Assembly: GCA_028554795.2 (NCBI GenBank)
Contig: CM068838.1
Coordinates: 127,438,428 to 127,502,427 of the forward strand
Length of the DNA: 64,000 bases
Reading direction: 5' to 3'
Source of the DNA: Sinohyriopsis cumingii
Lineage: Eukaryota > Mollusca > Bivalvia > Unionida > Unionidae
Shown here: piece by piece, positions 2,613 through 64,000 of the stretch
How positions within the stretch are numbered: the first letter of the stretch is position 1
Layout of the letters: every line of letters starts with the position of its first letter
The notes under the pieces: model-generated
What the model was told of the DNA's origin: nothing
Seen by the model: only the letters and a program-made list of their open reading frames with translations
The model's database searches: none
Made by a program: the position numbers and the translations under genes

Positions 2613-2634
2613 ACCCATCCCTTGTCCTGATCTC

Positions 2635-5330
2635 ATTTTAAATGATCGACTGAAATTTGGAGCTAAATGAACTGGTGCACTCTTAAGTATGACATTTAAC
2701 TTATCAAAATCCTCCTCACATTTGTCGGACCAGTAAAACATAATTTTCATACTCGATAAATTTTTCAGTGGTTCAGCAGTGCTGAAGCAAACTGGAACGA
2801 AATTTTCTATCAGATCCAGCCATACCTAAAATCGTATCCGTTGTGTTTTTTAACTGATAGGCACAGTGAATTCAGAGATAGCCTTGATCTTAGCAGCTAT
2901 AGGTTTAAAGTGTCCATGTTCCACGATAAGTCCTACAATTGTAACAACAGCACGGAAACCCCCACTTATGGATAAATTTAGAAGTTTGCATCAGTGAGTT
3001 TATCAAAGAATTTCCGAATCGTCTCCAAGTGGACCGCTCCGGTGGCCTAGTTGGAGCGTCCGCCTCGGATGCGAGAGGTCGTAGGTTCGACCCCCGGCCG
3101 AGTCATACCAAAGACTTACAAAAATGGTACTACCAGCTGCCTCGCTTGGTGCTCAGCATTAAGAGGTTCGTGTTAGGAATGGTCGGCCTGGTGTCAGGAT
3201 AATGTGACTGTGTGGGACATCATGCTACAGGACTGAGGCATGATGCCCCAGTGCTAGACATCACTATAAACTGCCACATTGCAGACATCATAGCGATATG
3301 ACTGAAAAATTGTTAAAGCTACGTTAAAAATCCAAAACACATCACATCACAACAAGTGATCTTTCCACGTGCCCTTGTAGATGATGGCATCATCGATGCA
3401 AGCATCACGAATATCTAGATGACATGTAATCATGTTCATTAAACGTTGAAAAGTTCAAGGCGAACCTTTTATCCCAAACAGCATCACCTTATACTGATAA
3501 AGTATGTCAAGAATACCAAAATTTTCTTTTGTCCTTTCTGTCCATGGAATTCGCCAGAATCTTACAGAAGTTAAAATTTCGGTTATATATTTATTATTTT
3601 ATAATTTTGTCAATGCAGTCAAAGATTCTTGGCAATGGAAATGAAAGTTTTGTCACATGATTCACTTTCCGATAGTCACTTCACATGTGGAAAGTATTAT
3701 CTGACTTCGGTACAGGAATGAATGGTGAGCAGTCAATTATGTTAGGTTCTATGAAATAATTTTTCAGCAAATACTAAATTTCTTTTTAAAACATTCCTGT
3801 TTGAGAGTGTTCACCCTGTACTGATGCTGCTTCACAGTTGAGGAGTCTACAATTTCAACGTTATGGAAACAACTCATGTTCAAGAAATAGCTGCGTTAAT
3901 TCATTCTAGCTCTTTTGTTGCAGATGTGAAAGTTTTGGTCCAGATTATTCACAATTTCTGAATTCTGATGATTTCTTAAACTAAAGTCATTACAGTCTGA
4001 TTACATTCTATAGCTTAAATTCCCACTGTGTGGACCAAAATGACCGCACGATTAATTTTGCTATCTCTATCTACATACTCCTTTGGCATATTTATATGAC
4101 AAGGTCGATTTTACCGCCTCCCATGTGTATTAATAAAATGATTTAAATCACTCACTCACTTTTCAACTGTGAAAGGACCATAAAACTTAGCCTGAAAAGG
4201 ATTTTAAGGTAAGGGCAAGAGAGAAAGAATTATATCACCAGGCATAAAACTTCTTTCCTTTGTATTTTTATCATACCTTAATTTCATTTTTGGAATGAAT
4301 AGCGTGCAGATTAGTTCCAGCAACTTCACATGCCTTTGACAACCTATATTTAAAATTAGAAAGAGTCGACAAGGCTCATTTTTGTATCTTCGATTAAAAC
4401 AAGTTTGTCATTTAAACTTTTAAATTGTCCACGGACGATTTATTCAAAAACTAGTTCAAAGTGACTAAATCATAAAGACTCCTGAACTGATTACCTAACG
4501 GCAAACAACGGCAAAAGTGAACACTTTCGTCCCAATCCTTTTCAGTATGAAAATAATATATCCGATTTATATTTATCACAGTTTGATAAACTCTTTCTAA
4601 AACCCTTTGAATTTTAGAGTGATAGGCAGAAGACTTGAATTGCTGGAAGACTAATTCACACACAGCTTGCTGGAAAATTCTAGACATAAAATTTGACCCT
4701 TGATCAGAATGGATAGATTTGGGCAGGCCAAACTGAGTAAAACAAAACTTTATCAAAGCTTTTACTATGGTGTTAGTTTTAAGATTCTTTAAAGGAATTG
4801 CATATGTGAATCTTGTAGAAAGAGACATTACGGTCAACAAGTACTGGTTGCCAGACTTGATCTTGTGTAAGGAACCGACACATTCTACCAATATTCTCCT
4901 AAATGATTTGTCAAATGCAATAATAGGTCACATATGACCCTTTAGGTATCTTCCTCTACAGTATTTACAAACATCACTTAATGTTAGGCCAATAGAATGA
5001 TTCAAAATCTAGCGATACAACAAACAAAATAAATGATCCCTATATAAATATCATATGATTATCCAAAGGAGTTTTATGGGTCAGACTAAAATTACTTGAC
5101 TATATGACTTTGGAACAATAACTTGATAGTTCACTGACAATTCGTCACCAGCAAGTATATCAGGTAGTCTCCAATTTCTCATAGGGAGCCCATGTTTTAC
5201 AAATACCTAACGGGTACTGGTATGGCTTCAGTTTCGCTAATAGCCTTCTGAAACAAACTGAGATCTCAGGATCTTGAACAATTCTGACAATGCAAAGTTA
5301 ACGTAGAAAAATAATGAACATAATAATGTC
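2635..5330 (-). pseudogene. pol: GMR1-like Ty3-type retrotransposon pol, copy D (decayed)
   Basis: Minus-strand remnant of the same element family as the copies at 35-64 kb. In element orientation, integrase comes first: zinc-finger remnant (DVCKYC, about 4985-4965, with most of the following linker deleted), then a core with an open 146-codon piece at 4451-4891 that keeps SDQGSNFMS and FGLPKSIHSD. RT-related sequence follows at about 3780-2770; a stretch matching the LYQYKVMPF and KGSP region of the other copies lies near 3490-3440. An RNase H start matching the other copies ends near 2640. Protease and gag are not found. Many stops and frameshifts are present, and a SINE (3032-3352) splits the RT region with a 6-bp target duplication. 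The integrase-before-RT order agrees with the other three copies. Confidence 0.75.
3032..3352 (+). mobile_element. tRNA-derived SINE, family 1, full length, inside copy D
   Basis: Starts GACCGCTCCGGTGGCCTAG and shows a Pol III A-box (TGGCCTAGTTGG, one base more than usual) and a B-box (GGTTCGACCCC), followed by a body shared with the other family 1 copies and the tail AAAGCTACGTTAAAAATCC. It is flanked by CAAGTG at 3026-3031 and 3353-3358. Removing it restores continuity with the matching pol region of the other copies, so this is a target-site duplication. Confidence 0.85.
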
Positions 5331-16136: not shown

Positions 16137-16138
16137 AG
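16118..16138 (+). promoter_or_regulatory. 3' splice acceptor before the glycosyltransferase-like CDS
   Basis: The pyrimidine-rich run CTTTCTCTTCTTTTTTCAG ends at 16138, 22 bases before the ATG. The reading frame is open from the acceptor to the ATG, so either a 5'-UTR exon or a short upstream coding exon is possible. Confidence 0.65.
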
Positions 16139-16160
16139 GTCGCCTCTGGAACATTCAGAT

Positions 16161-30083: not shown

Positions 30084-30086
<3 letters not shown>
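29780..30086 (+). mobile_element. SINE family 1, leader copy of unit 1
   Basis: ACCGCTCCGGTAGCCTAGTGG head with A-box; the B-box is damaged. Shared body and tail, followed by (AG)n at 30087-30115. It occupies the same place as the SINEs at 40635 and 53038. Confidence 0.9.
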
Positions 30087-30205: not shown

Positions 30206-30457
30206 GTCAGAAGAGTAAAAAGGATGATTGGAGAACACGCAGCCTCATTGTTGTGTATAGTTGTGTTCATTGGAGTCTGACTTTTAGTGGTCTTTGTTGC
30301 TAAAGTGCGCGTCTGGAAACCAATATTTCATAAAACCTTCAAGAATGATCCCAGGCAAGCAGTTAATGATACCCAAGAAGTAGGACTGGCTGCCACGAGT
30401 TCCGAAATCGAATCTTTTGGGCATACTCTTCCAGAGGCGGTGACAGCTTCAGTTTAA
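30206..30457 (+). pseudogene. Single-pass membrane peptide exon, unit 1 (stop at codon 19)
   Basis: Same length (77 codons plus stop from ATG 30224) as the open copies in units 2 and 3 and without indels, but codon 19, TGT for Cys in the others, is TGA here (30278-30280), inside the membrane segment. The acceptor TTCATTTTAG ends at 30205; the frame is open from there to the ATG. The downstream half still encodes the basic juxtamembrane part (KVRVWKPIFHK) and the conserved GHTLPEAVTASV end. It is the most diverged of the three. Probably not functional unless the TGA is read through or edited, for which there is no sign. Confidence 0.7.
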
Positions 30458-32121: not shown

Positions 32122-32430
32122 CGGTGGCCTATTGGTTAGAGCGTCCGCACCGGATGCGGGAGGTCGTGGTTCGAACACCAAATGAGTCATACCAAAGACT
32201 TTTAAAAATGGTACTTACAACTGCCTCTCTTGGTGCTCAGCTTTAAGAGGTTAGTGCTAGGACTGGTCGGTCTGGTGTCAGGAAAATGTGACTGGATGGG
32301 ACATCATGCTACATATCAGCACCATGATGCCCCAGTGCAAGATATCACTTGTAACTCTCACACTGCAGACATCGTAGCGATATGACTTTAAAATTATTAA
32401 AACTACGTTAAAAGAAACTAAACCACAAAC
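32122..32430 (+). mobile_element. SINE family 1, third copy of unit 1
   Basis: Flanked by TACATGGAGCA (32111-32121) and TACATGGATCA (32431-32441). The left flank in units 2 and 3 reads TACATGGATCA, so this is an 11-bp target duplication with one later change. Same site as the SINEs at 44394 and 56794. Confidence 0.9.
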
Positions 32431-32879: not shown

Positions 32880-34205
32880 TGTTCTTCCACATACTGCATT
32901 ACTCGTAAGATTAAAAAGAAAGGCCTCATAGTAAATTTTCCATTGTTTATCAATACGCTGCATTAATCCTAAGACTGAAAAGAATAGCCTCATGATAAAG
33001 TTTCCATTGTTTATCTTTATACTGCCCTAATAGTAAGATTAAAAACAAAGGCCTCATAGTAAGTTTTCCATTGTTTATCAATACGCTGCATTAATCGTAA
33101 GACTGAAAAGAACGGCCACGTGGTAAATACTATATTGTTTATCTATATGCTGCCGTAATCGTAAGACTGAAAAGAATGGCTTCATGTTTTTGTTTTTTTT
33201 TTACTATTGTTTATCTATATGCTGCCTTAATTCTAAGACTGACAATAATGGCCACGTGGTAAAGTTGCATTGTCTTTATACTGCTTTACTCGTAAGACTG
33301 AAATGAATGGCCACTAGGTAAATTTTCTATTGTTTGTCTATATACTGCTTTACTCGTAAGACTGAAATGAATGGCCACGATGTAAATTTTCCATTGCTTG
33401 TCTATATACTGCCTTAATCTTAAGACTGAAAGTAATGGCCAGACAGTACATTTTCTATTGTTTATCTTTTTGCATCCATAGTTATAAGACTGACAAGAAA
33501 GGCCACTTGGTAAATTTCCTTTTTGTATATTACTGTAAACGTAAGACTGAAAATAATGCCACGTGGTAAATTTTATATTGTTTATCTATCTGCTGCCTTA
33601 ATTCCAAGACTGAAAAGAATGGTCACATTGAACATTTTCCATTCTTGTCTATATAATGCCTTAAACATAAGTCTGAAATAAATGGCAACGTGGTAAATTT
33701 TTCCATTGTTTGTCTATATATTGCCGTAAACGTAAGACTGAAAAGAATGACCTCATAGTAAATTTCCGGTTATTCATCTATCTACTGCCTTAAATGTGAG
33801 ACTGAAATGAATGGCCACGTGGTAATTTTTCCATTGTTTATCTCAATACTGCGTAATCGTAAGACTGAAAAGAATGTCCTTATGGTAAATTTTCCATTGT
33901 TTATCGATATACTGTCTTAAATGTGAGACTGAAATGAATGGCCACGTGGTAATTTTTCCATTGTTTATCTCAATACTGCGTAATCGTAAGACTGAAAAGA
34001 ATGTCCTTATGGTAAATTTTCCATTGTTTATCGATATACTGTCTTAAACGTAAGACTGAAATGAATGGCCACGTGGTAATTTTTCCATTGTTTATCTCAA
34101 TACTGCGTAATCGTAAGACTGAAAATTATGACCTCATAGTAAATTTTCCATTGTTTTTCTATACACACTATCATACGTAAGATTGAATGGAATAGCCACA
34201 TAGTA
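32880..34205. repeat. 64-bp minisatellite, array of unit 1 (about 20 monomers)
   Basis: Monomers follow the pattern GTAAGACTGAAAAGAATGGC, CACGTGGTAAATTTTCCATT, GTTTATCTATATACTGCCTT, AATC. Many carry GGCCACGTGG (E-box CACGTG), others CCTCATGG or CCTCATAG at the same place. From about 33792 to 34110 there is a higher-order dimer with a 127-bp period (starts near 33792, 33919 and 34046). Confidence 0.9.
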
Positions 34206-35459: not shown

Positions 35460-38400
35460 AATTATAAGGATTAGATGATCACGGTTTGGTATTTATCTAT
35501 GTGTCAATTCATGTCGAAGGGTTCTATATCATTCATGAGTGATTCGGCCAATCCAATCCCTATTGCAATTTTAAGGGACACAGGGGATTCTCAGTGTCTT
35601 TTATTATCAGGTACTTTACCTTTTTATGAGAAGCCTTCTTGTAATGAGAGTGTCCATATTCAGGAAGCAGAGTGCAGTTTTGTCTGTGGTCCTCTCCATT
35701 GTGTACATTTGTCACCACACTTAGTCTCAGGACCCGTGACAATTGCAACAGACACAACTTTACCCATTCAGGGCATTCATTTAATACTAGGCAATGATCT
35801 AGCTGGAGATTAGATTGTGGTTCATACTCTTGCAACTGACAAGCCTTGTTTGGATCGTATTGAAAAAGAAATGCCTGATTTATACCCAGGTTGTGCAGTT
35901 ATTAGAGCTATGGCAAAGAAAGATCTTGAGAATGATATTGAATAAAGTATTCTTTAGCTGAGATATGTATTGGTCGGACTTTTGATAAGGTCATTTTTAC
36001 TTCTGGTTTGGATCAGTTAAAGGCTATTGATGACAGTGATCCTCTTTCTACTACCCATTCTCTGTATTATTATCAGGGTGACAAACGGCAATCCCTTTTC
36101 CTCCAACAGGAAAAACAGCCATGAGATCTCATGTCAGTTTCAAAGGGTCATTAGTGAAACAGAAATCATATAAGTACCTGTTTCTTATTTCGTTGAACAT
36201 TGGACTTTTGTAAGAAAATGGAGACCACCTGGGGTACCCACAGGTGACAAGTGGTCAGTGAACGATCCAATTGTAGTTCCAAAATCGTAGACAGATTTTT
36301 CGTAGTCTATCCATTGAACTCCTTTATCTGATGATGCAGGGATTATTAAGACGTATCACATGATCTTCAAGAACTTCTATTAGCCAAAAATTAAAAGAGA
36401 ATTTTGTAAATAGTGCAGATCTTATCACACTTGTCAAATGGAAGGAAAACCCAATCAAAAGATACACCAGACTCATCTGCAACCTATTACTGTATTTGAC
36501 GAACCAGATAACAGAATACTGGTAGATTGTGTCGGTCCCTACCTTAGACCAAGTCAGGTAACCAATATTTGTTGCTATACTGTTTGAGTCAACAAGATTC
36601 CCAGAGGCATTTCCTTTGAGTAATATTAAACGAGATCGTTAGTAAAAGCTTTGTTAAAGTGTTATACTCAGTTTGGCCTTCCTGCGTCTTCCAATATGAC
36701 CAAAGGTCAAATTTTATGTCTGGAATATTCCTGGAAGATAAGAGAGATAGAAAGAAGGATAAACAAAAGCTTACTTTGGAGCTACACCATCGTCTCCCGT
36801 AGACGGACGGATGCCAAGTACTATGTACGACATAGGCATCCAACAATTCAAGTATTATGCCTATCACCCTGAGAGGCGAGGGGCTTTAAAAACAGTTTCA
36901 TCAAACTTTCAACAATATGATTCTGTCATATTGATTTGATACAGGTAATTATGAAGAAAGCGTTCATTTACTATTGCTTTCTGTTAGGGAATAGTTCAAG
37001 GAAATCTTTATTATTCAGTCCGACTGAACTATTGTTTTGTGCGTGGACCGTTGACGTTGTTAAAAAAGAAACTTCTTTCTAATGAAGATGCGGAGATAAA
37101 TCTTCTCGATTATGTTTCCAATTTTAAGTATAAGTTGTCAAAGGATTGTGATGTCGCACAAACAAAGCTGAACTGTACTCAGTCAAATATGAAATTAAGC
37201 TAAGATAAAGGATAGAGATTTCAGCCTGGCAATGGAGTCCTGGCTTTCTTGCCCGTACCACTAAATCCTCTTCAGGCTAAGTATTATAATCCTTACACAG
37301 TTGTAAAGAAATTAAATGATTTAAATTATATAATAAATATTCATAGGAGGCTCAAAACAAAAACAAATTTACCATATAAATATGTTAAAGGAGTATCCTT
37401 ATAAGCATAGCTAGGTTAATGAAACAATTCGTTTAGTTGTACCTGTCCGACATACTAAGGATAAAAGCGATGGAATGCAATCGGACTGTTTTAATGATTT
37501 GACCAGAAACTTTCACAACTGCAGCAACAAGAAAAGAATGAACTAAAGTAGTGATTGCTTGAATATAAGCACTTATTTCCAGATGTTCATAAAAGAACAA
37601 ATAAAATCTACCATGACATCTGTGAAAGTACACCCGTATAGGATGAACCCTCTCAAGCAGGAATGTTTGAAAAAAGTAATTCAGTAGTTGCTAGAGAATG
37701 AATTCATAGAAACAAGTGCACGTGACTGAAGTTTCCCAAATATAAATGTTCCTAAAACACATAATACTTTCCGCATGAAGACTGATTACACAAAGGTGAG
37801 CAGTTTGAATAAAATTGATTCATTTTCATGACCAAGAGTCGATGACTGCATCGATAAACTTGAAAATGCAAAGTATGTCACAAACTTTGACCTTCTGAAA
37901 GGATTTTGGTAAATTCCACTGCCGGAAAGAGCAAAAGAAATTTCAGCATTCGTGATTCACAAAATACTTTATCAATATAAAGTAATGCCGCTTGATATGA
38001 AAGGTTCGCCTAGTACTTTTCAACGTTTAATGAACATTGATTACATCTGGTCTAGACAATCATGATGCTTACATCGATGATGTCATCATCTACAACGACA
38101 CATAGAAAGATCATTTAGAGATAATTCGGAAATTTGTTGACATATTTAATGGTGCAAATTTGACAATTCATTTATCGAAAAGTGTGTTTCGCTTTGCTTG
38201 TGATACATTTCTTGAACATGTAGTGAGAATAGGACAAGTTAAACCTTTAGCTACTAAGGAGAAGGCTATCTCTGAATTCCCTGTGCCTGTCAGTAAAATG
38301 CAGCTGCTGCGTTTTATGGGTATGGCTGGATGTTATTGGAAATTGTGTTCCAATTTTGTCGTAATGCCTGAGTTCCTGACAAGTTTATTGAGCAAAGAAA

Positions 38401-38640
38401 CCAAAGGTTTCATTGGTCTGAAAAATGTCAGGATACTTATGATAAGTTAAAGGCCATACTTAAGAGTGCACCAGTTTGTATAGTTCCTGATTTCAGTCAT
38501 TCACTTAACTTGTCAGTTGATGCAAGTGATGTTTGTGTTGGAGCAGTTTTGATTCAAGATGACATAAATGATGTAGATTATCCGTGTGTTATTGCTTGAA
38601 GAGATTAAATAAGCATCAGAGAAATTATTAAACAATGTTA
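35460..38640 (+). pseudogene. pol: GMR1-like retrotransposon pol, copy A (protease, integrase, RT, partial RNase H)
   Basis: Order seen: aspartic protease with LRDTG (DTG at 35577-35585) and a LILGNDLAGD end (about 35785-35812); integrase zinc finger with C-RSYHTCQ (about 36400-36435) and core with LVDCVGP (about 36520); integrase C-terminal part to about 37400; RT from about 37620, with FDLLKGFW (about 37886) and YIDD (38070-38081); start of RNase H with VDASDV (about 38516). The protein would be the polyprotein that copies and inserts the element. Here integrase precedes RT, unlike standard Ty3 elements. Stops and frameshifts occur in every domain, and a deletion near 38635-38680 removed most of RNase H, the polypurine tract and the LTR start. 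Not functional. Confidence 0.85.
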
Positions 38641-38677: not shown

Positions 38678-39900
38678 GTAACATTGTATGCAGGATCTGA
38701 CCTTCTCCAAAACCGAGTCCTTTTATGATAGAACTGATTGACCTATTTATGTCATTGCATGTAAGGAACTAACACGTAGCTAAATTGTTCTCTCTGTGTA
38801 TGGGCTTGTTATCAAAATCTTTATTAATCGAAGAAGTTAATATGTTTATTAGAATTAGAGGTTTGGAATTTTCTAAGTGAATTTTACAGGTTATGGTTTT
38901 GATTTTGTTAGCATCGGTATCATACTAGAAGGCTATTTTCCATTAGGTAATATTTATTTTAAGAAAATGCTAATTGTCACCTGAGGTCAAACAGAGAACT
39001 ATATAATCTTGTAATTGTAAGGACTGGGTCATTCGTGCTTTAACATCTAGCACTTTCAAGTTGTATTATGTTGTGACCAGTAGCACTGAATTTTATCTTC
39101 TTCAAATTATTGAATTCGAGTGATTATTTTCTGTGCAAATACAAAAGTGATCTGATAAAGTTCTTGGATAGAAACATTCACCGGAATTTATACTGAATTC
39201 AAACCTTGAATTACTGTTATTCAACAAAACACTGTTGACACATCTACACTCTCTCCACGGTTACCCTACGATTACTCCAATTCATTCATTTTGAACGTTG
39301 TCGCATGCCATACATGTATGTACTTTTCCATTGACGCATTAAGTGCCACCTCAACCCGTTATGTGTATCCAGATCTAGCGAACACGACAAGCTAAATATA
39401 TCAGCAGATCAGGAAAAGAACTTCATTTTGGGTCAACAGCCTTAGAAGAGGAGGAACCGTCCGAGTTGAATGGTACACAGCATATAGGACACATGCAAGA
39501 GTTGCCATTTTATTTATTAATTATTTCGATTTTAATAGCGGTTCAGTTCTGTCAAATATTATCTACTGAGAGAGTTTAAACAGCATTTAACAAAGCACTG
39601 CCTTTGGTAAGTACTGACATTATTTCAAATGGAACTGCTTACATTTTATCATTCAAAGCTCTTATCAAGTGTTCTTTTCATCTGTCTAGAAGTGAAGTTT
39701 GTAATGCGATTAATATGTGCATGTAACTTGGTTGGTATGGTACTGACATTTGAATATCACAGCATGACTCACTCACCGTATACGTAATCGGATAAAAATA
39801 GGTTCGAACTATATAAACAGGCTTCGCTATTTCATTTGGATATACTGAAATGAAACTGTTACACTAGTAGGATAGTAGTATTCTGTATCAAACATATATT
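38678..39900 (+). mobile_element. LTR-like region between units 1 and 2, 5'-truncated
   Basis: Starts inside the LTR at TGTAACATTGTATGCAGGAT, about 75 bases after the LTR start seen in the other copies, and continues to the TATA region. It serves both as 3' LTR of unit 1 and 5' LTR of unit 2. The right end is unresolved. Confidence 0.65.
39765..39817 (+). promoter_or_regulatory. Candidate LTR promoter, unit 2
   Basis: TGACTCA at 39765-39771, TACGTAATC, and TATATAAA at 39810-39817, as in units 1 and 3. Candidate splice donor ATAG|GTAGATG at 39979. Confidence 0.5.
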
Positions 39901-40634
39901 GTGCTTTTAATGTTCAGGGTACATAATTTATATAATGTGAAGGAAAATATTAAGCTAAAAAGTGTATTTTACATATAGGTAGATGTGAAATTTGATTCAT
40001 ACCCATTGCATCTAAGGTATGTACTAAATTTGAAAGGTTCGTGACCTTCATATACAAACATATTTGGCAGGTATTCCATGAAGGAATATATCCATTCACA
40101 CGTCCTTCTATCCTCCAACCAATCCACACAAATACCTATCTACCAACCAACCTACCTACCTACCTACCTACCTACATAGGTTCTTTACTGGACTGATTAC
40201 ATGGACGGGTCATGCAAGGCGGTGAAGGTGGAACCCGTCGCGATATCCACCTCACCCCCGTCCAAAGTAAAAGAAAGGAACCAACACAAAGACTGACATA
40301 TTTTTAAACTTATTACATAGAAACAATTAGATTTCAGGAATTCCTGAAGCTTTGCCTGCCGTCCCACCCCCACTCTATTGGAGATCCCGTCATACATACA
40401 CTTTATCTAATTTGCTTTTGTCCCTTAAATATACTTCCGGATCATCCATTGCATATATATCTTTCAGAAGGGTATATTGCTCGTTTGTTTGGTGATAGTT
40501 TAATTGATGGCTTGGATTAGTTTTGATTTACGGAACAGCAGCACAATTAGGCTATTTAATACAGAGTCTATATTCTCTGTGTTGAAGATGAAACTGCAGA
40601 ATCAAGATCCGGATTATGCAATTGCAGATCTGGG

Positions 40635-40942
40635 GACCAATCCGGTAGCCTAGTGGTCAGAGCGTCCGCCTCGAATGCTGGAGCTCGTAGGTTCGCGCCC
40701 GGGTCGAGTCATACCAAAATCTTATACAGATGGTACAGAAAGCTGCAGTGATTGGAGCTCATCATTAAGAGGTTACCGTTAGGACAGGTCGGCCTGGTGT
40801 CCAGATAATATTACTTGGTGGGTCATAATGCTACATTGTCTATGGCATGATGCCCCTGTGCAGGACATCACCACAAACTGTCACACTGCAGACATCGGAG
40901 CGATATGACTAAACGAAGTGTCAAAACTGCGTCAGAAATCCA
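40635..40942 (+). mobile_element. SINE family 1, leader copy of unit 2
   Basis: GACCAATCCGGTAGCCTAGT head, damaged B-box GGTTCGCGCCC, shared body, tail to AAATCCAACACACA. Cognate of 29780 and 53038. Confidence 0.9.
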
Positions 40943-41220
40943 ACACACACACATATACACAGAGATCTATGTCCATGACGTTTTCAGCTGGATCTGAAAC
41001 GCTAGACTATGTAATGGTATTCATCCAGTTTACTTGTTCCCTTTGCTGGTGATATGAGACTGTTGATAGCATATAGTGGATGCCATATGCATTTACGCGT
41101 TTTTATTTCTGGTAGATCTTCATTACCGTATTTGTACTATTAACATTCCGTGGCGTTAACGTCTTATTTTGTCTGGTAGAACTTCATTGCCGTACCTGAT
41201 TAATATTATTTTCATTTTAG

Positions 41221-41472
41221 GACACAAGAGTAAAAAGGATGATTGGAGAACACGTAGCCTCTTTGTTGTGCATAGTTGTGTTCATTGCAGTCTGTGTTTT
41301 AGCGGCCTTTGTTGCTAAAGTGCGCGTCTGGAAACTAAGATTTCATAAAAGATTCGAGAAAGATCACAGGCAAGCAGTGAGTGATACCCAAGAGGAAGGA
41401 ATGGCTACCACAGGTTCCGAAATCGAATCGCTTGGGCATACTCTTCCAGAGGCGGTGACAGCTTCAGTTTAA
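41221..41472 (+). CDS. Exon for a 77-residue single-pass membrane peptide, unit 2
   Basis: ATG at 41239, stop TAA at 41470-41472; the exon probably begins at 41221 after the acceptor ATTTTCATTTTAG, and the frame is open for six codons upstream (DTRVKR), so this may be the last exon of a longer protein. Residues 7-27 (ASLLCIVVFIAVCVLAAFVAK) form one membrane helix, followed by a strongly basic stretch (KVRVWKLRFHKRF, 27-39), which predicts an outside N-terminus and a cytosolic C-terminal tail of about 47 residues. This is like the end of a type I receptor. No known domain was recognised. An AATAAA lies at 41601-41606, 129 bases after the stop. It sits between the LTR promoter and pol, where gag would be expected. 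Between this copy and unit 3 there are ten replacement changes and one silent change. Expression and function are unknown. Confidence 0.5.
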   Translation, partial: DTRVKRMIGEHVASLLCIVVFIAVCVLAAFVAKVRVWKLRFHKRFEKDHRQAVSDTQEEGMATTGSEIESLGHTLPEAVTASV

Positions 41473-42808
41473 CGGTATGATCACACCAATATGACGTATG
41501 CATTTTATATTTAATGATTTATATTTAATTAACTGGAAACTGTGCATTGATGTTTTGGAATAATGTTCCAGGCATTATATGCATTATATCCCACTTACGA
41601 AATAAATGGTATATTTCAACATAACCCAATCTTCGCTACCTTGAGGTGCCGATAACAATATATATACCTTGTCGTAACAAACAGACATTGTTGTGCTTTG
41701 GGTCTGTGAATTTCATTGAATGCGGCGGCAAGAAACCGCATCCAATGAAAATCAAGTTGTTCAAATTTGAACATTGTTCCTATGTGATCGACACAAGGGG
41801 AGCACATAACTTGAATGGACTAATAAATAAGCAATTTTCCAGTGCCTGTCCGTGTTTGCACAAGTACCTCTCACTCAAATACACTTGTAATGGCTTCTCT
41901 CTGGTACAGTCATACTTTCGATGTTAAATTTACAAAAGCATCCGTTTTAGGTTAATTTCCTCCACCGTTTCGGCCGATGTACAATGCATCACGAGATTGT
42001 TTAGTTGGCATTACATAATAAGGTAGGCAACTCATGAAATCCAATAGATGTCGTTGTAGTACGTAAATGTATTGCACTCATTGTTTATCTTGACCATTGT
42101 GAAAGATTGTTCAAGTGATCACGAAAATGGGGACGTGTTTCGACTGTTCGTGCGCTATGCTCGCAGTATGAGATCAAAGTAGTTCAGTTTCAAGGTCACT
42201 TGTGAGGTAGGATGGTTATCTTTTACCATATTTCTACAGTGGAAAACACAATCATACACGTATATGAATGTGCTAAATTTGTTGTCTCGTCTTTTAAAAA
42301 TGATATTGTTCCATTGCGACCCAACGGAGATATTGTTTTCTTGATTGTAAATGAGGTTATCTAGGTTGACCTGGAGATAATTTCTTCGCGATATCAGTTA
42401 CAACATTTTTCGACGGGACTTTTAAAAATCGTATATTTATGGTAAACAATAAACGTGTATTATTATAATTAATTTACACTTCACACAGCAGTGTTATAGC
42501 TAGTTTGCCGATTTGTCAGAATGAGGTACAAAGCAGCGAGGAAATATTATACTTTTATACCTGTCCAATGAGTTGGTAACCCACGTTATGGAAAATTTTA
42601 ACTCTCCAACAGAGAAAATCAGGACACATTCTGAAGAACACATTAACATTGGATGGAAAATGAAAGATGACTTCTTCAGTGACCGCTCCTGCTCCGTGAC
42701 TCTACTGCCTTGTGACTCTACTTTTGTACCTACCTACATCCATTCATGCACCTGTAACAATATACATGGATACATGGTACATACTATTTTATCTGTTTAT
42801 CTGGATAG
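41473..42808 (+). other. Sequence downstream of the membrane ORF, unit 2
   Basis: AATAAA at 41601-41606 would end a short transcript. A 93-codon open frame (41646-41927) is broken by a 1-base deletion in unit 3 and by changes in unit 1, so I do not call it. The segment is about 97-98 percent identical to unit 3. Confidence 0.5.
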
Positions 42809-43101
42809 AACCTGTGGCCTAAGTGGTTAGAGCGTCCGCCTCGGATTCGGGAGCTCGTGGGTTCGAGCCCAGGCCGAGTCATACCGAAGACTTAGAAAAA
42901 TGCTACTTGCAGCTGCCTCGCCAGGTGCCCAGCATTAAGAGGTTAGTGTCAGGCCTGGTTGGCCTGTTGCCAGGATAATGTGACTGTGTGGGACATGATG
43001 CCACATGAATGCGGATTGATGCCCTAATTCTAGGCATCACTATAAAATGCCACGATGCAGATACCGTAGAGATATTACTAAAATCATTAAAGCTACATTG
43101 A
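42809..43101 (+). mobile_element. SINE family 1, second copy of unit 2
   Basis: GAACCTGTGGCCTAAGTGG head, intact B-box GGGTTCGAGCCC, shared body and tail. It ends in (CA)n at 43102-43147. Confidence 0.9.
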
Positions 43102-43147
43102 ACACACACACACACACACACACAGACACACACACACACACACACAC
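43102..43147. repeat. (CA)n microsatellite at a SINE tail
   Basis: CA run with one GACA interruption. Confidence 0.95.
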
Positions 43148-44393: not shown

Positions 44394-44692
44394 CAGTGGC
44401 CTAGTGGTTACAGCGTCCGCACCGGATGCGGGAGGTCGTGGGTTTGAACACCGGCCCAGTCATACCAAAGACTTTTAAAAATGGTACTAACAGATGCCTC
44501 GCTTGGCGCTCAGCATTAAGCGCTTAGTGGTAGCACTGGTCGGCCTGGTGTATCACTGGGTGGGACGTCGTGCTATATGTCTTGGGTCATGATGCCCCAG
44601 TGATAGATATCACTTTAAACTACCACTGCAGACATCGTAGCGCTATGACTTTAAAATTATTAAAGCTACGTTAAAATAATTTAAACCACAAA
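44394..44692 (+). mobile_element. SINE family 1, third copy of unit 2
   Basis: CAGTGGCCTAGTGGTTACAGC head after TACATGGATCA (44383-44393). Shared body and tail; the right-hand target duplication has decayed (CACATGAATTA). Confidence 0.9.
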
Positions 44693-45079
44693 GCACATGA
44701 ATTAAGGATGGTTTTGTTAACTGAACTGATATATCACAAACCAATCATAATACTGTCATGGGCAAATTATTAATGAGAGAATATATGACACCATCTAGTC
44801 ACTTTTATATATTTAATCAGCCTAATATAGTTTTTTTTTTAAAATTCAGACTAATTCTTTTATAATATTTTTCCTCTATTCATCTTTAAACTTTAAAATA
44901 TTTGCTATAAAGTCGAAAATCAATGAGAGAAAAATAGGTTCTTTAGTCTTTAGCTTGTTAATCACTATTAGATTTTCATTCAAAATCTTCCGTGATTAAT
45001 TTGGTTTTGCAAATAATTTTGTTATGCTGTCTTGTTATCATCAGCGTCTTTGCAGATACATTGTGCTACTAGCATTTTC

Positions 45080-46215
45080 TATTGTTCTTCCATATATTGC
45101 ATTACTCGTAAGACTGAAAAGAACGGCCACATGGTAAATTTTCCATTGTGTATCGTTATACTGCCCTAATAGAAAGATTGAAAAGAAAGGCCTCATAGTA
45201 AATATTCCATTGTTTATCAATACGCTGCATTAATTGTAAGATTGGAAAGAATGGCCTCATGGTAAATTTTCCAATGTTTATCTTTATACTGCCCTAATAG
45301 TAAGAATGAACGAAAGGCCTCATAGTAAATTTTCCATTGTTTATCAATACGCTGCATTAATCTGGAAAGAATGGCCTCATGTTAAATTGTTCAGTGTTGA
45401 TATATATACGCTGCCTTAATTCTACGACTGACAAGAATGGCCAAGTGGTAAATTTGTATTGTTTATCAATATGCTGCCTTAATCGTAAGACTGAAAAGAA
45501 TTGCCACGTGGTAAATTTTCCATTGTTTGTCTATATAATGCCTTAAACGTAAGACTAAAATGAATGGCCACGTGGTAAATATTCCATTCTTTGTCTATAT
45601 ACTATCTTAATCGTAAGACTGAAAAAGATGACCTCATGGTAAATTTTCCATTGTTTATCTATCTACAGCCTTAATCGTAATACTGAAAAGAATGACCTCA
45701 TGATACATTTTCCATGGTTTATCTATCTACTGCCTTAAACATGAGGCTCAAATCAATTGCTACGTGGTAAATTTTCCATTGTTTATCTATCTACTGCCTT
45801 AATCGTAATACTGAAAAGAATGACCTCTTGATACATTTTCCATTGTTTATCTATCTACTGCCTTACATGTAAGACTGAAAAAAATGACCTCTTGATAAAT
45901 TTTCTCTTGTTTATCTATCTACTGCCTTAAACATGTGGCTGAAATCAATTGCTACGTGGTAAATTTTCCATTGTTTATCTATCTACAGCCTTAATCGTAA
46001 TACTGAAAAGAATGACCTCATGATAAATTTTCCATGGTTTATCTATCTACTGCCTTAAACGTAAGGCTGAAATGAATTGCCAGGTGTTAAATTTTCCATT
46101 GTTTATCGATCTACTGTCTTAAAAGTCCGACTGAAAAAAATGACCACCTGGTTAATTTCCCATTGTTATTTATACACACCATTGTACATAAGATTGAATG
46201 GAATAGCCATATAGT
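45080..46215. repeat. 64-bp minisatellite, array of unit 2 (about 17 monomers)
   Basis: Same monomer as in unit 1. CACGTGG or CTACGTGG alternates with CCTCATGG or CCTCTTGA in the variable spot. Confidence 0.9.
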
Positions 46216-47389: not shown

Positions 47390-50300
47390 TCATATCGAAG
47401 GGTTCTATACCACTCATGGGTGATTCGGCCAATCCAATCCCTACTCAAGTTTTAAGGGACTCATGAGCTTCTCAGAGTCTTTTATTATCAGGTACTTTGC
47501 CTTTTTCTGAGAATTCGTCTTCTAATTCAGGAAGTAGTGTGTAGCTTTGTCAGTGTTCCTCTCCATTGTGTAAATTTATCCTCAGACTTAGTCTCAGGAC
47601 TTGTGATAATTGGAACAGTCCCTTCTTTACCCATTCATGGATTCATTTAATATTAGGCAATGATCTAGCTGGAGATAAGATTGAGGATAATACACTTGCA
47701 ACTCACAAGCCTTGTTTGGATCAGAAGGCTGATCGTATTGGAAATGAAAGGCCTCATTTATACCCAGGTTGTGCAGTTATTATAGATATGGTAACGAATG
47801 CTCTTGAGAATGATATTGAATAAAGTATTCTTTAGCTGAGATATGTATTGGTCGGACTTTTAATAAGGTCATTTGCACTTCTCGTTTGGATTAATTAGAG
47901 GATATTTACCATAGTAATCCTCTTTCTACTACCCTTTATCTTTATTCTTATCAGGGTGACAAACGACAATCACTTGTCATCAAACAGGAAAAACAACCCT
48001 TAGATCTTTTGTTAGTTTCAAAGTGGCATTAGTGAAAGAGAATCCATAGAGGTACCCGTTTGTTATTTCGTTGGCAATTGGATTCTTACAAGAAAATGGA
48101 GACCACCTGAGGCACCCGCTGGTGATGAGTGGTCGTGGTCAGTGAACTATCAAATTGTAGTTCCAAAAAACGTTCAGACAGGCAATTCTTAGTCTAGCCC
48201 ATGAACTCCTTTGGCTGATCATTTAGGGATTAATAAGACTTATCACAAGATCTTGAAGAACTTCTATTAGCCAAAAATTAAAAAATCTGTAAATACTACA
48301 GATCTTATCACACTTGACAAATGGAAGGAAAACCCAGCCAGAAGATACCTCAGGCTTATCTGCAACCAATTCCTGCATTTGACGAACCGTTTAACAGAAT
48401 AATGGTAGAATGTCTCGGTCCCTTACCTACGATCAAGTGAGGTAACCAATATTTGCTGAACACAATGTTTGAGTCAACAAGATTCCCAAAGGCAATTCCT
48501 TTGAGAAATGTTCAAAAGAAAACGTTAGTAAAAGCTTTCATAACGTGTTATACTCAAGTTGGCCTTCTTATATCGGTAAAACATGATCAAAGGTCAAATT
48601 ATATGTCTGGAATATTCCAGCAAGTTATGCACAAAATAAGCATCCAACAATTCATGTCTTCTGCCTATCAACCTGAGAGTGGAGGGGCTTTAAAAACAAT
48701 TTCATCAAACTTTCAACAATATGATTCGGTCATATTGTTTTGATACAGGTAATTATGAAGAAAGCGTTCATTTACTATTGCTTTCTGTTAGGGAATCAGT
48801 GCAAGGAAATCTTTATTATTCGGTCGCACTGAACTAGTTTTTGTGCGTGGACCGTTGAAGTTGTTTAAAGAGAAATTTCATTCTAATGAAGATGCCGAGA
48901 TTAATATCTTTTCGATAATGTTTCCAAATTTAAGTACAAGTTGTCAAAGGATTTTAAGGTCGCACAAACTACGCAGCACTGTACTCAGTCAAATATGAGC
49001 TTAATGTATGATACAAATATAAAGGAAAGGAGTTTTAAACATGGTGATAGAGTACTGGCTGTCTTACCAGTACCACAAAATCCTCTTCATGGTAAGCATT
49101 ATGGGCCTTACACAGTTGGAAAAAAGTACATGATTCAAATTAAATCATAAATACTCCTGGGAGGCCCAAAACAAAAACAAATGTACCATATAAATATGTC
49201 AAAAGAGTAGGCTGATAGAGATAGCCAGGTTAAGCATCCAATTCGTTTAGTTGTACCTGTCCCACACACTAAGGATAAAAGCGACGGTATGCAATCGGAC
49301 TCAGTTTACTTTGGGGTAACAAATCTTCGGAATGCAGCAAGTTTTAATCATCAGACCAGAAACGTTCACATCTGCAGCAACAAGAAAAGAATGAACTAAA
49401 GCAGTGATTACTTCAATATAAGCGCTTATTTCCGGATGTTCATACAAGAAAAAATAAAATCTACCGTGACCTTAGGGGCCCCGAGTGGCCGAGTGGTCTA
49501 AAGCGCTCTCCGTTATGGATCACTGCCATCGCACCTCTGTCTGAGTGGGTTCGAGTCTAGGATTCGGCCAATGTGGTTATGTGAGAAAACTTACCAGTAG
49601 CTTCTCGTGAGTCGGTGGTTCTTCCTGGGGTTTTCCCGGGTTATTCCTCCACCATTAATACTGGCCGCCATGAATAGCCTATCGTGTGCTGAAAATGGCG
49701 TTAATCCCAACAACAACAACAACAACTACCGTGACCTTGAAATTATAAAATTCACACCTGTGAAAGAACACCCGTACATGATGAATCCATTCAAGCAGGA
49801 ATGTTTGAAAAAAGAAATTCAGAATTTGCTAGAGAATGATTTCATAGAAACGAGTAAAAGTGACTGCAGTTCCGCATGTATACTTGTTCCTAAAACAGAT
49901 AATACTTTCCGCTGCACATTGATTATAAATAGATGAAAAGTTTTATTAAAATAGATTCATTTCCATTACGAGGAATCGATAAAATTTGAAATGCAAAGTA
50001 TGTCAACACATTTGACCTTCTGAAAGGATTTTGGCAAATTACATTCACGGAAAGGGTAAAGTAAATTTCGGCATTCGTGACTCCAGATGGACTTTATCAA
50101 TATAAAGTGATGCCGTTTGTGATGAAAGGTTCGCCTAGAACGTTTCAACGTTTAATGAATATTGATTACATCAGGTCTAGACAATCGAGATGCTTACATC
50201 GATGATGTCGTCATCTACAAAGACACATTGAAAGACCATTTAGCGACAATTCGGAAATTTTTTGACAGATTTAATGGTGGAAGTTAGACAATTAATTTAT

Positions 50301-50850
50301 TAGAAAGTGTGTTTTGCTTTGTTTGTGATGCATTTCTAGGACATATAGTGGGAATATGACAAGTTAAACCTATAGATGCTAAGGAGAAAGCTATCCCTGA
50401 ACACTATCAGAAATTTTGTTCCAATTTTGTCATAATTGCTGAGTTCCTGACAAATTTACTGAGCTAAGAAACCAAAAGTTTGATTGGTCTGAAAAATATC
50501 AGGAGGCTTTTGATAAGTTAAAGGCCATACTTAAGAGTGCACCAGTTCGTACAGCTCCTACTTTCAGTCATTGCTTGAAGAAATTAAAAATGCAGCAGAG
50601 AAATTATTCCACAATAGAGAAGGAATGTTATCTTTGATTCTAGCATTACAAGTCTTTGAAGTCTACATTAGTTCAGCTCCTTCTCCGATTATTGTGATCT
50701 GTGATCACAAGCCCCTTAATTTCATCAGCAGGATGAAAAAGAAATCAGAGATCATTAAGGTGGAGTTTGATGTTGCAGGATTATAATGTTGAAATTAGGC
50801 ACATGAAAGGGAAAGACAATTTAATCGCAGATGCACATTCACGTGTATAG
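47390..50850 (+). pseudogene. pol: GMR1-like retrotransposon pol, copy B
   Basis: Protease region at about 47400-47700 with the DTG codons destroyed (GACTCATGA near 47458) but HLILGNDLAGDK kept (47646-47681). Integrase zinc-finger region about 48220-48330, core about 48380-48745 with an open piece at 48453-48743; a TGA just upstream (TCAAGTGAGG) is shared with copy C. Integrase C-terminal part to about 49200. RT from about 49740, with an open NPFKQECLKKEIQNLLENDF start, and YIDD at 50195-50206. RNase H from about 50500 with EKECYLLILAL-like sequence, ICDHKPLNFI (about 50697-50726), and the terminal KGKDNLIADAHSRV followed directly by TAG (50848-50850). That RNase H ends the reading frame confirms that no integrase follows it. 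A SINE (49474-49726) and many frameshifts break the copy. Confidence 0.85.
49474..49726 (+). mobile_element. SINE family 2, full length, inserted in pol copy B
   Basis: GGGGCCCCGAGTGGCCGAGTG head, B-box GGGTTCGAGTCTA, conserved body, CATGAATAGCCTAT, GGCGTTAATCCC and (AAC)n. Flanked by a perfect 12-bp duplication TACCGTGACCTT (49462-49473 and 49727-49738). Copies A and C have no insert at this site, so it landed after the units duplicated. Confidence 0.95.
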
Positions 50851-50991: not shown

Positions 50992-52310
50992 TGCTATGTA
51001 TATTAATTTAATTGTTTGTTTGTTAGTTTTACTTTGTTTTAAGTTTCATTACATGCTACTGTAATGTAGCATTGTATGCAGGATCTGACCTTCTCCAAAA
51101 CCGAGTTCTTTTCTGCTAGACCTGATAAAACTTTTTGTCATTGCATGTAAGGAACTAACACGTAGCTAAATTGTTCTCTCTGTATATGGACGTAATATCA
51201 AAATCTTTATTAATCAAAAAAGGTAATATGTTTATATGAATTAGGGCTTTGGAATTTTCTAAGTGAATTTTACAGGTCATGATTTTGATTTGGTTAGCAT
51301 CGGTATCACACCAGAAGGCTATTTTCCATTAGGTAATATTTGTTTTAAGAAAATGTTAATTGTCACCTGAGATCAAACAGAAAACTATATAATATTGTAA
51401 TTGCGAGGACTGGGTCGTTCGTACTTTAACATCTAGCACGTTCGATTTGTATTGTGTTGTGATGAGTTGCACTGAATTTTATCTTCTTCAAATTATTGAA
51501 TTCGAGTGATTATTTTCTCTGCAATGACATAAGTGATGTGATAAAGTTCTTGGATAGAAACATATACTGGAATTTATACTGAACTCAAACCTTGAATTAC
51601 TGTTATTCAACAAAACACTGTTGACATATCTACACTCTCTCCAAACTTACGCTATGATTGCTCCAGTTCATTCATTTTGAACGCTTGCTCATGCCATACA
51701 TAAGACTGATTTATTTTTCCATTGACGCATTAAGTACCACCTCAACCAGTTGTGTGTATCCAGATCTAGCGAACGTGACAAGCTAAATGTATCAACAGAT
51801 CAGGAAAAGAACTTCATTTTGGGTCAACAGCCTTAGAAGAGGAGGAACCGTCTGAGTTGAATGGTACACAGAATAGAGGGCACATGCCAGAGTTGCCGTT
51901 TAAATTATTAATTCTTTTGTTTTTAAAAGCGGTTATGTCAAATATTCTCTACGGAGAGAGTTGAAATAGCACCATTTACATCTTTAACAGAGCACTACCT
52001 TTGATATGTACTGAAATTATTTCAAATACAAATACTTACCTTTAATCATTTAAAGCTCTTATCAAGTGTTCTTTTGATCTGTTTATAAGAGTAATTTGTT
52101 ATGCGATTAAGATATGCAAGTAACGGGGTTGGTATGGTACTGTCATTTGAATATCACAGCATGACTCACTCACCGTATACGTAATCGGATAAAAATAGGT
52201 CCGAACTATATAAACAGGCTTCGCTATCTGAGTTGGATATACTGAAATGAAACTGTTATACTAGTAGAATAGCAGAATTCTGTATCAAACATATAGTGTG
52301 ATTTTCATGT
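50992..52310 (+). mobile_element. LTR-like region between units 2 and 3
   Basis: Starts TGCTATGTATATT after the polypurine tract. It is collinear with 38678-39900 and 63371-64000 and carries the conserved TATA region. The 3' limit was not resolved: no clear CA end with an adjoining primer-binding site could be picked by eye. Confidence 0.65.
52162..52214 (+). promoter_or_regulatory. Candidate LTR promoter, unit 3
   Basis: TGACTCA at 52162-52168 and TATATAAA at 52207-52214; candidate donor CATAG|GTAGATG at 52376. Confidence 0.5.
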
Positions 52311-59919: not shown

Positions 59920-62900
59920 GATGATCATGGTTGGGTATTTATCGATGTGTCAATCCATATCGAAGGGTTCTATATCACTCATGGGTGATTCGGCCGATCC
60001 AATCCCTATTAAAGTTTTACGGGACACAGGAGCTTCTCAGTCTTTTATTATCAGGTGCTTTGCCTATTTCTGAGAATTCTTCTTCTAATGAGGGTGTTCT
60101 TAAACAGGACGTCGAGTGTAGTAAATTTGTCATCAGACTTAGTCTCAGTACCTGTGATAATTGCAACAGTCCATTCCTTGCCCATTTATGGCATTCATTT
60201 AATAATAGGCAATGCTCTAGCTGGAAATAAGATTGTGGTTAATACACTTGCAAATGACAAGTCTTGATTGGATCCGAAGGCTGGTCGTATTGGAAATGAA
60301 AGGCCACATTTATACCCAGGATGTGCAGTTATTATAGATATGGCAAAGAAAGCTCTTGAGAATGATTGTGATCAAGAAGTATTCCTTTAGCTGACAAAAT
60401 TATTAGTCGGGCTTTTAATAGGGTCATTTTCACTTTTTTTGGATGAATTAAATGGTATTGGTCAGTGATCCTCTTTCTACTACCCATACTCTTTATACTT
60501 ATCAGGGTGACAAGCGAGAATCACTTGTCATCAAACAGGAAGAGAATCATGAAATCTCTTGTTTGTTTTAAAGAGCCAGTAGTGAAATAGAAGGCACAGA
60601 ACTACATGATTGTTTTACCATTAAAAATTGGATTCTTATAAGAAACTGGAGACCACCTGAGGCAGCCGCTGGTGACGAGTGGTCAGTGAACTATCAAATT
60701 GTAGTTCCAAAATCGTACAGACAGAAAATTCTTAGTCTAACCCATGAACTCCTTTGGCTGATAATGTAGGGATTAATTAGACTTATCACAAGATCTTGAA
60801 GAACTTGTATTACCCAAAAATTACAAGTGATGTTTGTAAATACTGCAGATCTTATCACACTTGACAAATGGATGGGAAACCCAATCAGAAGATACCTCAG
60901 GCTTATCTGCAACCTATTCCTGCATTTCACAAACCGTTTAACAGAATAATGGTAGAATGTCTCGGTCCCTTACCTACGATCAAGTGAGGTAACCAATATT
61001 TGCTGAACACAATGTTTGAGTCAACAAGATTCCCAAAGGCAATTCCTTTGAGAAATATTCAAACGAAAACGTTAGTAAAAGCTTTCATAAAGTGTTATAC
61101 TCAATTTGGCTTTCTTATATCTGTAAAATATGATCAAAGGTCAAATTATATGTCTGGAATATTCCAGCAAGTTATGCACAAAATAAGCATCCAACAATTC
61201 AAGTCTTCTGCCTATCAACTTGAGAGTCGAGGGTCTTTAAAAACAATTTCATCAAACTTTAAAAAATATGACTCGGTCATATTGTTTTGATACAGGTAAT
61301 TATGAAGGAATCAGTTCAAGGAAATCTTTATTATTCAGTCGCACTGAACTAGTTTTTTGTGCGTGGACCGTTGAAGTTGTTAAAAGAGAAACTTCATTCT
61401 AATGAAGATGCCAAGATTAATCTTCTCGATTATGTTTCCAAATTTAAGTATAAGTGGTCAAATATTGTGAGGTTGCACAAACTATTCTGCACTGTACTCA
61501 ATCAAATATGAAATTAAGGTATGATAAAAAGTTATAAAGGAAAGCAGTCATCAGACCCGTGAGAGAGTTCTGGCTCTCTTGCCCGTACCACAAAATCCTC
61601 TTTATGAGAAGTATTATGGTTCTTACACAGTTGAAAAGAAAGTTAATTATTTAAATTATGTCATAAATGCTCCTGGGAGGCCCAAAACAAAAACAAATGT
61701 ACCATATAAATATGTTAAAGGCGTATGTTGATATAGATAGCCAGGTTAATGATGCAATTATTTATTTGTACCTGTCCCACACCCTAAGGATAAAAGCGAT
61801 GGAATGTAATCGAACTCTGTTTACTTTGGAGTAACAAATCTTCGGAATAGATAGAGGTTTACTAATCTGGACCAGAAACTTTCACATCTGCAGCAACAAG
61901 AAAAGAATGAATTAAAGCAGTGATTCATTGGATATGAGCACTTATTTCCAGATGTTCAACAAAGAGCAAATAAAATCAACCACGACATTGAAATTGTAAA
62001 TTTCACACCTGTGAAAGTACACCCGTACAAGATGAATCCTCTCAAGCAGGAATGTTTGCCAAAGAAATTCAGTATTTGCTGGATAATGATTTCATAGAAA
62101 CAAGTAAAAGTGACGGGAGTTCCCCAAGTCTAATTGTTCTTAAAGCAGACAAAACTTTCCACATTTCAATTCATTATAGAAAGGTGAGCAGTTTGAATAA
62201 ATCGATTCATTTTAAACACCAGGAATCGATGACTGCATCGATAAAATTGAAAATGCAAAGTATGTCACAAAATTTGACCTTCTGAAATAATTTTGGCAAA
62301 TTCCACTGTCGGAAAGGGTAAAGGAAATTTCGTCATTCGTGACTCCAGATGGACTTTATCAATATAAAGTGATGCCGTTTCTGATGAAAGGTTCGCCTAG
62401 TACTTTTCAACGTTTAATGAACATTGATTACATATGGTCTAGACAATCGAGATGCTTACATCGATGATGTCCTCACCTACAACGACACATATAAAGATCA
62501 TTTAGAGACAATTCGGAAATGTTTTGACAGATTTAATGGTGCAAATTTGACAATTAATTTATCGAAAGGTGTGTTTTGCTTTGGTTGTGATACATTTCTA
62601 AGACATATAGTGAGAATATGACAAGTTGAACCTATAGATGCTAAGGAGAAGGCTATCCCTGAATTCCCTGTGCCTATATTTTGGGTATTACTGGATACTA
62701 TCGGAAATGTTCCACTTTTATTCATAATTGCTGAGCTCCTGACAAATGTGTTGAGCAAAGAAACCAAAGGTTTCTTTGGTCTGAAAAATGTAAGGAGGCT
62801 TTTGATAGGTTAAAGGCCATACGTAAAAGTGCACCAGTTCGTACAGCTCCTACTTTCACTCAATCGTTTAAATTGTCTGTTGACGCAAGTGATGTTGGGG

Positions 62901-63235
62901 CTGGAGCAGTATTGATTCAAGAGGACATAAATGGTATAGATCATCCAGTGTGTTATTGCTAGAATAAATTAAAAAAGCAGCAGATAAATTATTCCACAAT
63001 CGAGAAGAAATGTTTGGCTTTGATATTATCATTACAGCACTTTGAAGTCTACATTAGTTCAGCTCCTTCTCCGATTATTGTGATTTGTGATCACAACCCC
63101 CATACATTCATCAGCAAGATAAAAAAGAAATTAGAGATCATTAAGCTAGAGACTGATGTTGCAGTAATATAATGTTGACATTAGGCACATCAAGGGAAAA
63201 GACAATTTAATCGCAGATGCACATTCACGTGTATA
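59920..63235 (+). pseudogene. pol: GMR1-like retrotransposon pol, copy C
   Basis: Protease with an intact DTGASQ (DTG at 60023-60031), frame broken soon after. Integrase zinc-finger region about 60770-60900 (CKYCRSYHT), core with an open piece at 61000-61290, preceded by the same TGA as in copy B. Integrase C-terminal part about 61340-61720, including VPYKYVKGV near 61700. RT from about 62030 with an open 77-codon start (62052-62285), FDLL then a stop in place of a glycine or lysine codon, and YIDD at 62457-62468. RNase H about 62850-63230 with VDASDVGAGAVLIQ (about 62879-62920), FEVYISSAPSPIIVICDH and the DNLIADAHSRV end. It is the least interrupted copy around the catalytic motifs but still has many stops and frameshifts. 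Confidence 0.85.
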
Positions 63236-63370: not shown

Positions 63371-64000
63371 TACTATATATATTAATTTAATTGTTTGTTT
63401 GTTAGTTTTACTTTGTTTTAAATTTCACTACATGCTGTTGTAGTGTAACATTGTATGCAGGACCTGACCTTCTCCAAAACCGAGTTCTTTTGTGCTGGAC
63501 CTGATTGACCTTTTTATATCATTTTATGTTAAGAAGTAACACATAGCTAAATTATTCTCTCTTGTGTATGCACGTAATATCAGAATCTTTATTAATAGAA
63601 GCAGTTAATATGTTTCTTTGGGTCCGGATTTTGTAATTTCCTAAGTGAGTTTTACAGGTTATGGTTTTGATTTGTTAAAATCATGATTATACAAGAAATT
63701 TATTTTCCATTGGGTAATTTGTTTTAGAAAATGCTAATTGTGACCTGATTTCAAGCATATAAATATATAATCTTGTAGATGATAGGACTGGGTCACTCGT
63801 GCTTTAAGATCTAGCACTTTCAAGCTGTATTATGTTGTGATCAGTTGCACTGAATTTTAATTTCTTCAAATTACTGATTTCGTGTCATTATTTTCTCTGG
63901 AAAGGCAAAAGTGCTCTGATAAAATTCTTGGATAGAAATATTCACTTGAATTTAAATTGAATTCAAACCTGGAATTACTTTTAGTCATTAATAGACTGTT
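63371..64000 (+). mobile_element. LTR-like region after unit 3, cut by window end
   Basis: TACTATATATATT (TG changed to TA) and onward sequence collinear with 50992-51610. The window ends just before the position of the next unit junction, so a fourth unit or a closing LTR may follow. Confidence 0.65.

Follow-up and report, generated by a model that had tools for sequence, protein, structure and literature searches.

The maize element Bs1 is reportedly a case of gene capture by an LTR retrotransposon. Such capture in plants has been reviewed more broadly (PMC13317346). A second relevant group is the Gmr1 clade of Ty3 retrotransposons, in which the integrase lies upstream of the reverse transcriptase (PMC8220671, PMC6238403); the portions of these two papers that we used do not mention a membrane-peptide exon. 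Finally, there is a general class of pseudogenized terminal exons that have been spread by segmental tandem duplication and are marked by clustered copies, stops, frameshifts, and neutral drift of the protein reading. Our literature search returned nothing specific to an exon that replaces gag, and we make no claim that it is absent from print.

The locus described here shares features with each of these systems. It contains a membrane-peptide exon in several clustered copies that have stops, a frameshift, and neutral protein-level drift, as in the general class of pseudogenized terminal exons, to which we tentatively assign it. It differs from that class in that a retroelement fragment lies inside each unit examined, and in that the exon and its 3′ flank diverge more slowly than the sequence upstream. 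The retroelement resembles Gmr1-type Ty3 elements, as far as they are covered by the portions of the papers cited above, in the order of integrase, reverse transcriptase, and RNase H on one strand, in its Ty3-type Pfam matches for reverse transcriptase and RNase H, and in an LTR-like segment that occurs once per unit. Unlike those elements, it has broken frames and no recognizable gag. As in gene capture by LTR retrotransposons, a coding segment that does not look like part of the element lies between LTR-like sequence and pol; the difference is that the exon is found at one stretch, with no sign that exon and element have moved together. On balance, we lean slightly toward the view that the segment is a decayed terminal exon, carried along with the element fragment by the same segmental duplications. 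If so, the locus offers a caution: duplication of a block can lodge an exon foreign to the element between LTR-like sequence and pol, where it mimics a new retroelement gene.

The window (the whole stretch of DNA analysed, 64,000 nucleotides, C15:127438428-127502427) holds a tandem array that extends from about 28.4 kb to its right end, with spacings of 10.9-12.6 kb. Unit 1 starts at 28389 (equivalent to 39250 of unit 2), unit 2 at 38677, unit 3 at 51064, and a fourth unit at 63444. From 28.4 kb onward, identity in aligned 250-column segments is 74-99%, mostly 80-95%, as taken from segments with more than about 40 shared bases. Each of units 1-3 carries pol remnants 3′ of the exon. The exon and the features around it are as follows.

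41221..41472, plus strand: terminal-exon-like segment of unit 2, with the acceptor AG at 41219-41220, ATG at 41239, 77 codons, and TAA at 41470-41472
30206..30457, plus strand: exon of unit 1 (copy L003), whose frame meets a TGA within the helix (codon 19) and whose polyadenylation signal reads AACAAA instead of AATAAA
53646..53898, plus strand: exon of unit 3 (copy L002), open from the ATG, with a +1 insertion between acceptor and ATG
41601..41606, plus strand: AATAAA of unit 2, read from the sequence
39979..39984, plus strand: weak donor-like GTAGAT, common to units 1-3
39810..39817, plus strand: TATA-like TATATAAA, identical across units 1-3, of putative function
40634..40953, plus strand: short dispersed repeat in the supposed intron, in the same place in copies L004, L006, and L007

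The preliminary description placed a 77-codon ORF in every unit, behind a good splice acceptor and ahead of AATAAA. Unit 2 agrees with this on all points, whereas the ORF of unit 1 is interrupted by its TGA and has lost the AATAAA, and that of unit 3 is thrown out of frame if the acceptor is used. The acceptor of unit 2 (...TTTTAG/GA, 18 bases before the ATG) ranks among the best 40 of the 6762 AG sites (0.6%) by our own crude score, computed over the AG and GT sites of the window. The TAG in it doubles as the in-frame stop before the ORF, which makes the precise match of ORF and acceptor partly automatic. The single membrane helix with a basic flank was also borne out in unit 2, where the Kyte-Doolittle mean over 19 residues peaks at 3.07 (one strong helix) and basic residues follow on the C-terminal side. 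Acceptor, helix, basic flank, stop, and AATAAA thus occur in the proper order in unit 2, and the likeness to the last exon of a single-pass membrane protein stands; in unit 1 the series is not intact. The donor proposed near 39979 is indeed the same in units 1-3, but it is weak, falling only within the best 5.7% of 7201 GT sites. Donor-like sites at 40017 and 39607 score higher, yet units 1 and 3 do not preserve them.

Searches with the 77-codon peptide yielded only sub-threshold Pfam matches (best E 0.054), no relative in a PDB sequence search, no tblastn match in phage records, and no further match in the window beyond the array units. Rfam and ARAGORN found nothing over the window. We considered a retroviral-type envelope gene, which is a large glycoprotein ORF downstream of pol, and rejected it because the ORF has only 77 codons and lies upstream of pol. 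A short ATG frame in unit 2 (39494-39575) has a hydrophobic run and looks like a signal peptide, and is altered in units 1 and 3. As an upstream signal-peptide exon, the frame from ATG 39494 was set aside: it meets an early stop, and in a three-unit alignment of 39.3-40.2 kb only unit 2 has the donor-like site that follows it.

The repeat in the supposed intron belongs to a dispersed family of about 300 bp, which we take to be SINE-like from its stretches resembling A and B boxes; Rfam gave no match for the copy at 40600-40980. Copies lie at 3031-3351, 10749-11057, 24468-24789, 29780-30085, 32122-32413, 40634-40953, 42811-43124, 44396-44676, 53037-53364, 55201-55522, 56796-57098, and elsewhere in the window.

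We searched the genome (2.90 Gb in 1138 contigs) with 150 nt of the exon and obtained seven matches, a lower bound by the definition of the search. All seven are on C15 (150.9 Mb), between 127.468 and 127.627 Mb, a stretch of about 160 kb. Copies L001, L002, and L003 are the exons of units 2, 3, and 1, respectively, and L004-L007 lie outside the window. An in-frame stop is present in four of the seven (L003, L004, L005, and L007), the last three having one stop in the tail in common. The remaining three (L001, L002, and L006) are open from the ATG, and only L001 and L006 are open all the way from acceptor to stop, so that five of the seven carry a stop or a frameshift. The majority sequence over the seven copies is open. 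In copies L004, L006, and L007, similarity to the window begins at about 39.9 kb and ends at about 42.05 kb (near 42053), some 0.6 kb past the ORF. Their remaining 826-828 bp have no match, which means that the surroundings differ between copies. The intron repeat is common to these three and is therefore older than the duplications that produced them. Beyond the window, L005 matches L004 at 99.9% identity over 3150 bp and L007 at 99.6% over 2903 bp, and the exon copies L004, L005, and L007 are spaced 42.6-42.7 kb apart; this spacing and near-identity point to a younger, larger duplication there.

Divergence among the seven copies changes near the acceptor. Tree lengths are 0.295 for the exon, 0.272 for the 3′ flank, and 0.483 for 1021 ungapped columns 5′ of the acceptor, which puts the rate in the exon and 3′ flank at about 0.6 times that of the upstream sequence. 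The pair L001-L004 illustrates the step, with identities of 0.897 in the exon, 0.881 in the 3′ flank, and 0.796 upstream. Such a step is in keeping with either a genuine terminal exon and its UTR or a tract of gene conversion. The slow divergence itself could likewise stem from conversion, or from constraint on the last exon and UTR of a transcript. Between units 2 and 3, 41193-42930 and 53618-55328 are 94-99% identical, compared with mostly 82-92% around them, which suggests a gene conversion tract. Indels are also unevenly distributed: 11 events occur in 510 columns of the 3′ flank and none in 233 columns of the ORF in the exon, where about 5 would be expected from the flank (Poisson P ~0.007, by hand arithmetic).

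The codon pattern shows no sign of protein-level selection. Neutral simulations gave a stop in a mean of 2.6-3.2 of seven copies when run on the trees of the 3′ flank and the exon, and in 3.7-4.2 with the upstream tree; four were observed. Of the codons that differ, summed over pairs, a fraction of 0.751 encodes another amino acid, against 0.75-0.80 in simulation (P 0.13-0.50). The upstream rate points in the opposite direction: simulated on it, 0 of 500 runs at each of three settings had amino-acid changes as few as observed, so that the observed number is too low by this measure. The dN/dS ratio, likewise a contrary hint, is 0.35-0.90 in 16 of the 18 pairs for which it is defined, and 1.13 and 3.14 in the other two; these pairs are not independent. 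Between L001 and L006, both open from acceptor to stop, there are 15 nonsynonymous and 5 synonymous changes (dN/dS 0.89).

On the plus strand, the units contain, in order, protease-like, integrase, reverse transcriptase, and RNase H sequences in broken frames. The integrase is upstream of the reverse transcriptase, with both matching below the Pfam cut-offs. These remnants, and a second copy on the opposite strand, are as follows.

59921..60070, plus strand: protease-like ORF fragment of unit 3 (...LRDTGASQS...), found by eye in the translations and missed by a motif pattern; its counterpart in unit 1 is at 35475-35810
48441..48740, plus strand: integrase core fragment of unit 2 (PF00665, below the Pfam cut-off); in unit 3 at 60988-61287
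62291..62618, plus strand: unit 3 reverse transcriptase, in fragments that fall in two frames (PF00078, below the Pfam cut-off)
62735..63169, plus strand: RNase H of unit 3 in two frames (PF17919/PF17917); in unit 2 at 50443-50783, and the N-terminal half in unit 1 at 38372-38596
2634..5272, minus strand: second, diverged pol copy (integrase and the start of RNase H) in Gmr1 order, without the exon and without the protease region

The motif in the first fragment is presumably that of a protease. Judged from sequence, the neighboring pol is a decayed Gmr1-type Ty3 element. We listed 220 ORFs of at least 58 aa outside the minisatellites and scanned 109 of them with Pfam; at E 0.01, only retroelement domains were found. 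The absence of gag noted earlier was confirmed in that no gag family appeared among these 109 of the 220 listed ORFs and no CCHC motif in the stretches searched, scans that a decayed gag could escape. The minus-strand pol copy is 67-72% alike to the array pol. Only about 45 bp separate its LTR-like segment from pol, and the exon is missing together with the 7 kb around it. The copy begins at the equivalent of 47998, past the protease region, and is probably internally deleted. Since the protease region is missing too, the absence of the exon here says little about what an intact element contains. At about 2631, within RNase H, this copy is joined to open frames at 2222-2632 and 1342-1875 (minus strand), neither of which has a Pfam match at E 0.01.

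We compared the region upstream of the minus-strand pol with the array and found LTR-like segments in both. Their positions, with those of a minisatellite in the array, are as follows.

38898..39010, plus strand: LTR-like segment, 71% identical over 115 columns (E 5e-12) to the region upstream of the minus-strand copy
51310..51396 (E 8e-10) and 63666..63774 (E 2e-5), plus strand: further array copies of the LTR-like segment
5317..5430, minus strand: LTR-like segment directly upstream of the minus-strand pol; a second match is at 5578-5696 (E 4e-5)
45074..46174, plus strand: 64-bp minisatellite between exon and pol in unit 2; in unit 1 at 32891-34163 and in unit 3 at 57492-58573

The stretch 5696-5317 matches array sequence downstream of pol in two pieces, at 63386-63504 and 63666-63774. 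The LTR-like segment is thus downstream of pol in the array and upstream of pol in the minus-strand copy; an LTR would be expected to flank pol in this way, and the proposal of an LTR has support to that extent. No other direct-repeat pair that could serve as an LTR candidate was seen inside a unit. The segment starts units 2, 3, and 4 and so brackets units 2 and 3, as might be seen in an element array sharing LTRs. The claim that the exon lies between LTR and pol accordingly holds in outline for units 2 and 3, which have the LTR-like segment before the exon and pol after it, but not for unit 1, which lacks the left segment. The TATA-like sequence lies about 800 bp past the part of the LTR-like segment that can be demonstrated by comparison. 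From the exon to the protease there is a gap of about 6 kb that holds dispersed repeats and the minisatellite, for which a 127-bp higher-order period is reported in all three units.

These observations can be accommodated by a model in which a gene encoding a single-pass membrane protein once ended in this exon, which comprised the helix, basic stop-transfer, short cytoplasmic tail, and 3′ UTR. Segmental tandem duplications within a single chromosome-size contig would then have copied the exon and its surroundings, with the units in the window carrying a broken Gmr1-type Ty3 element along, and the protein reading would since have drifted under no detectable selection. Where a copy keeps the ORF open, this would be because it has gathered too few changes to disrupt it. 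We infer that the ancestral exon was coding and came from a host gene, whose upstream exons have disappeared or are to be found elsewhere; the element would be only a passenger. This reading is supported by the confinement of seven copies to 160 kb, the stop or frameshift in five of them, and the neutral stops and codon changes. We also count in its favor the similar tree lengths of exon and 3′ flank, the high-ranking acceptor, the open majority sequence, and the differing surroundings of L004, L006, and L007. Counted against it are the slower divergence relative to the upstream sequence, the shortage of amino-acid changes on the upstream rate, the lack of indels in the ORF, and dN/dS values mostly below 1, as well as the lack of any signal peptide, ectodomain, or other exon recognized by Pfam among the 109 of 220 listed ORFs. 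Chance survival had been among the initial suggestions, and survival by chance of a once-coding exon is the form of it that fits best.

A simpler possibility is that the segment was never an exon and is a chance ORF with a hydrophobic run in noncoding DNA of the duplicated unit, which we regard as rather unlikely. Its length is ordinary for the window, where 73 stop-to-stop ORFs reach 77 aa (34-53 in 10 Markov windows). The combination of helix and basic flank, with thresholds set after the target had been seen, occurs in 3 of 98 ORFs of at least 70 aa, two of which are this exon (units 2 and 3), and 0-2 times (mean 0.4) in each of ten random 64-kb Markov windows. The absence of an above-cut-off Pfam match or PDB relative, the neutral stops and codon changes, and the partly automatic fit to the acceptor are likewise as expected of a chance ORF; the rank of that acceptor, the correct order of the features behind it, the absence of indels in the ORF, and the conservation step near the acceptor are harder to reconcile with it. 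The last two observations would suit a gene family that is small but still living, or a last exon that is transcribed and has a role independent of the protein, in which a few copies (L001 and L006, open from acceptor to stop) still work. Yet those very copies differ from one another with a dN/dS near 0.9, and no upstream coding exon was recognized, which makes this improbable.

Another possibility is that the segment is expressed from the LTR through splicing, as either an accessory gene belonging to the retroelement or an exon captured from the host; this also appears unlikely. The LTR-like brackets on units 2 and 3, the position of the exon before pol, the unrecognizable gag, the good acceptor, and the shared donor are all consistent with this explanation. 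Against it, the genome search confines the exon to the one 160-kb stretch, and most copies are broken, one by a frameshift, which weighs against a working accessory gene. Moreover, L004, L006, and L007 part from the window soon after the ORF, the exon and protease are separated by some 6 kb of repeats and minisatellite, and the minus-strand copy lacks the exon, a weak point since its protease region is missing as well. In the most elaborate version, a promoter adjacent to the LTR in a Gmr1-type array sharing LTRs would drive an mRNA spliced from 39979 to 41220, and a captured last exon that replaced gag would still make a tiny single-pass membrane protein from L001 and L006. We consider this very improbable; if true, an LTR element would have traded its capsid gene for a membrane peptide.

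To the left of the array, a 352-residue open frame at 16110-17165 (plus strand) has no Pfam match at E 0.01. Its N-terminal hydrophobic stretch prompts the guess that it may be a host gene that lacks introns and encodes a type II membrane protein. Single-sequence structure prediction for 338 of its residues (16152-17165) gave no usable model (mean pLDDT 33).
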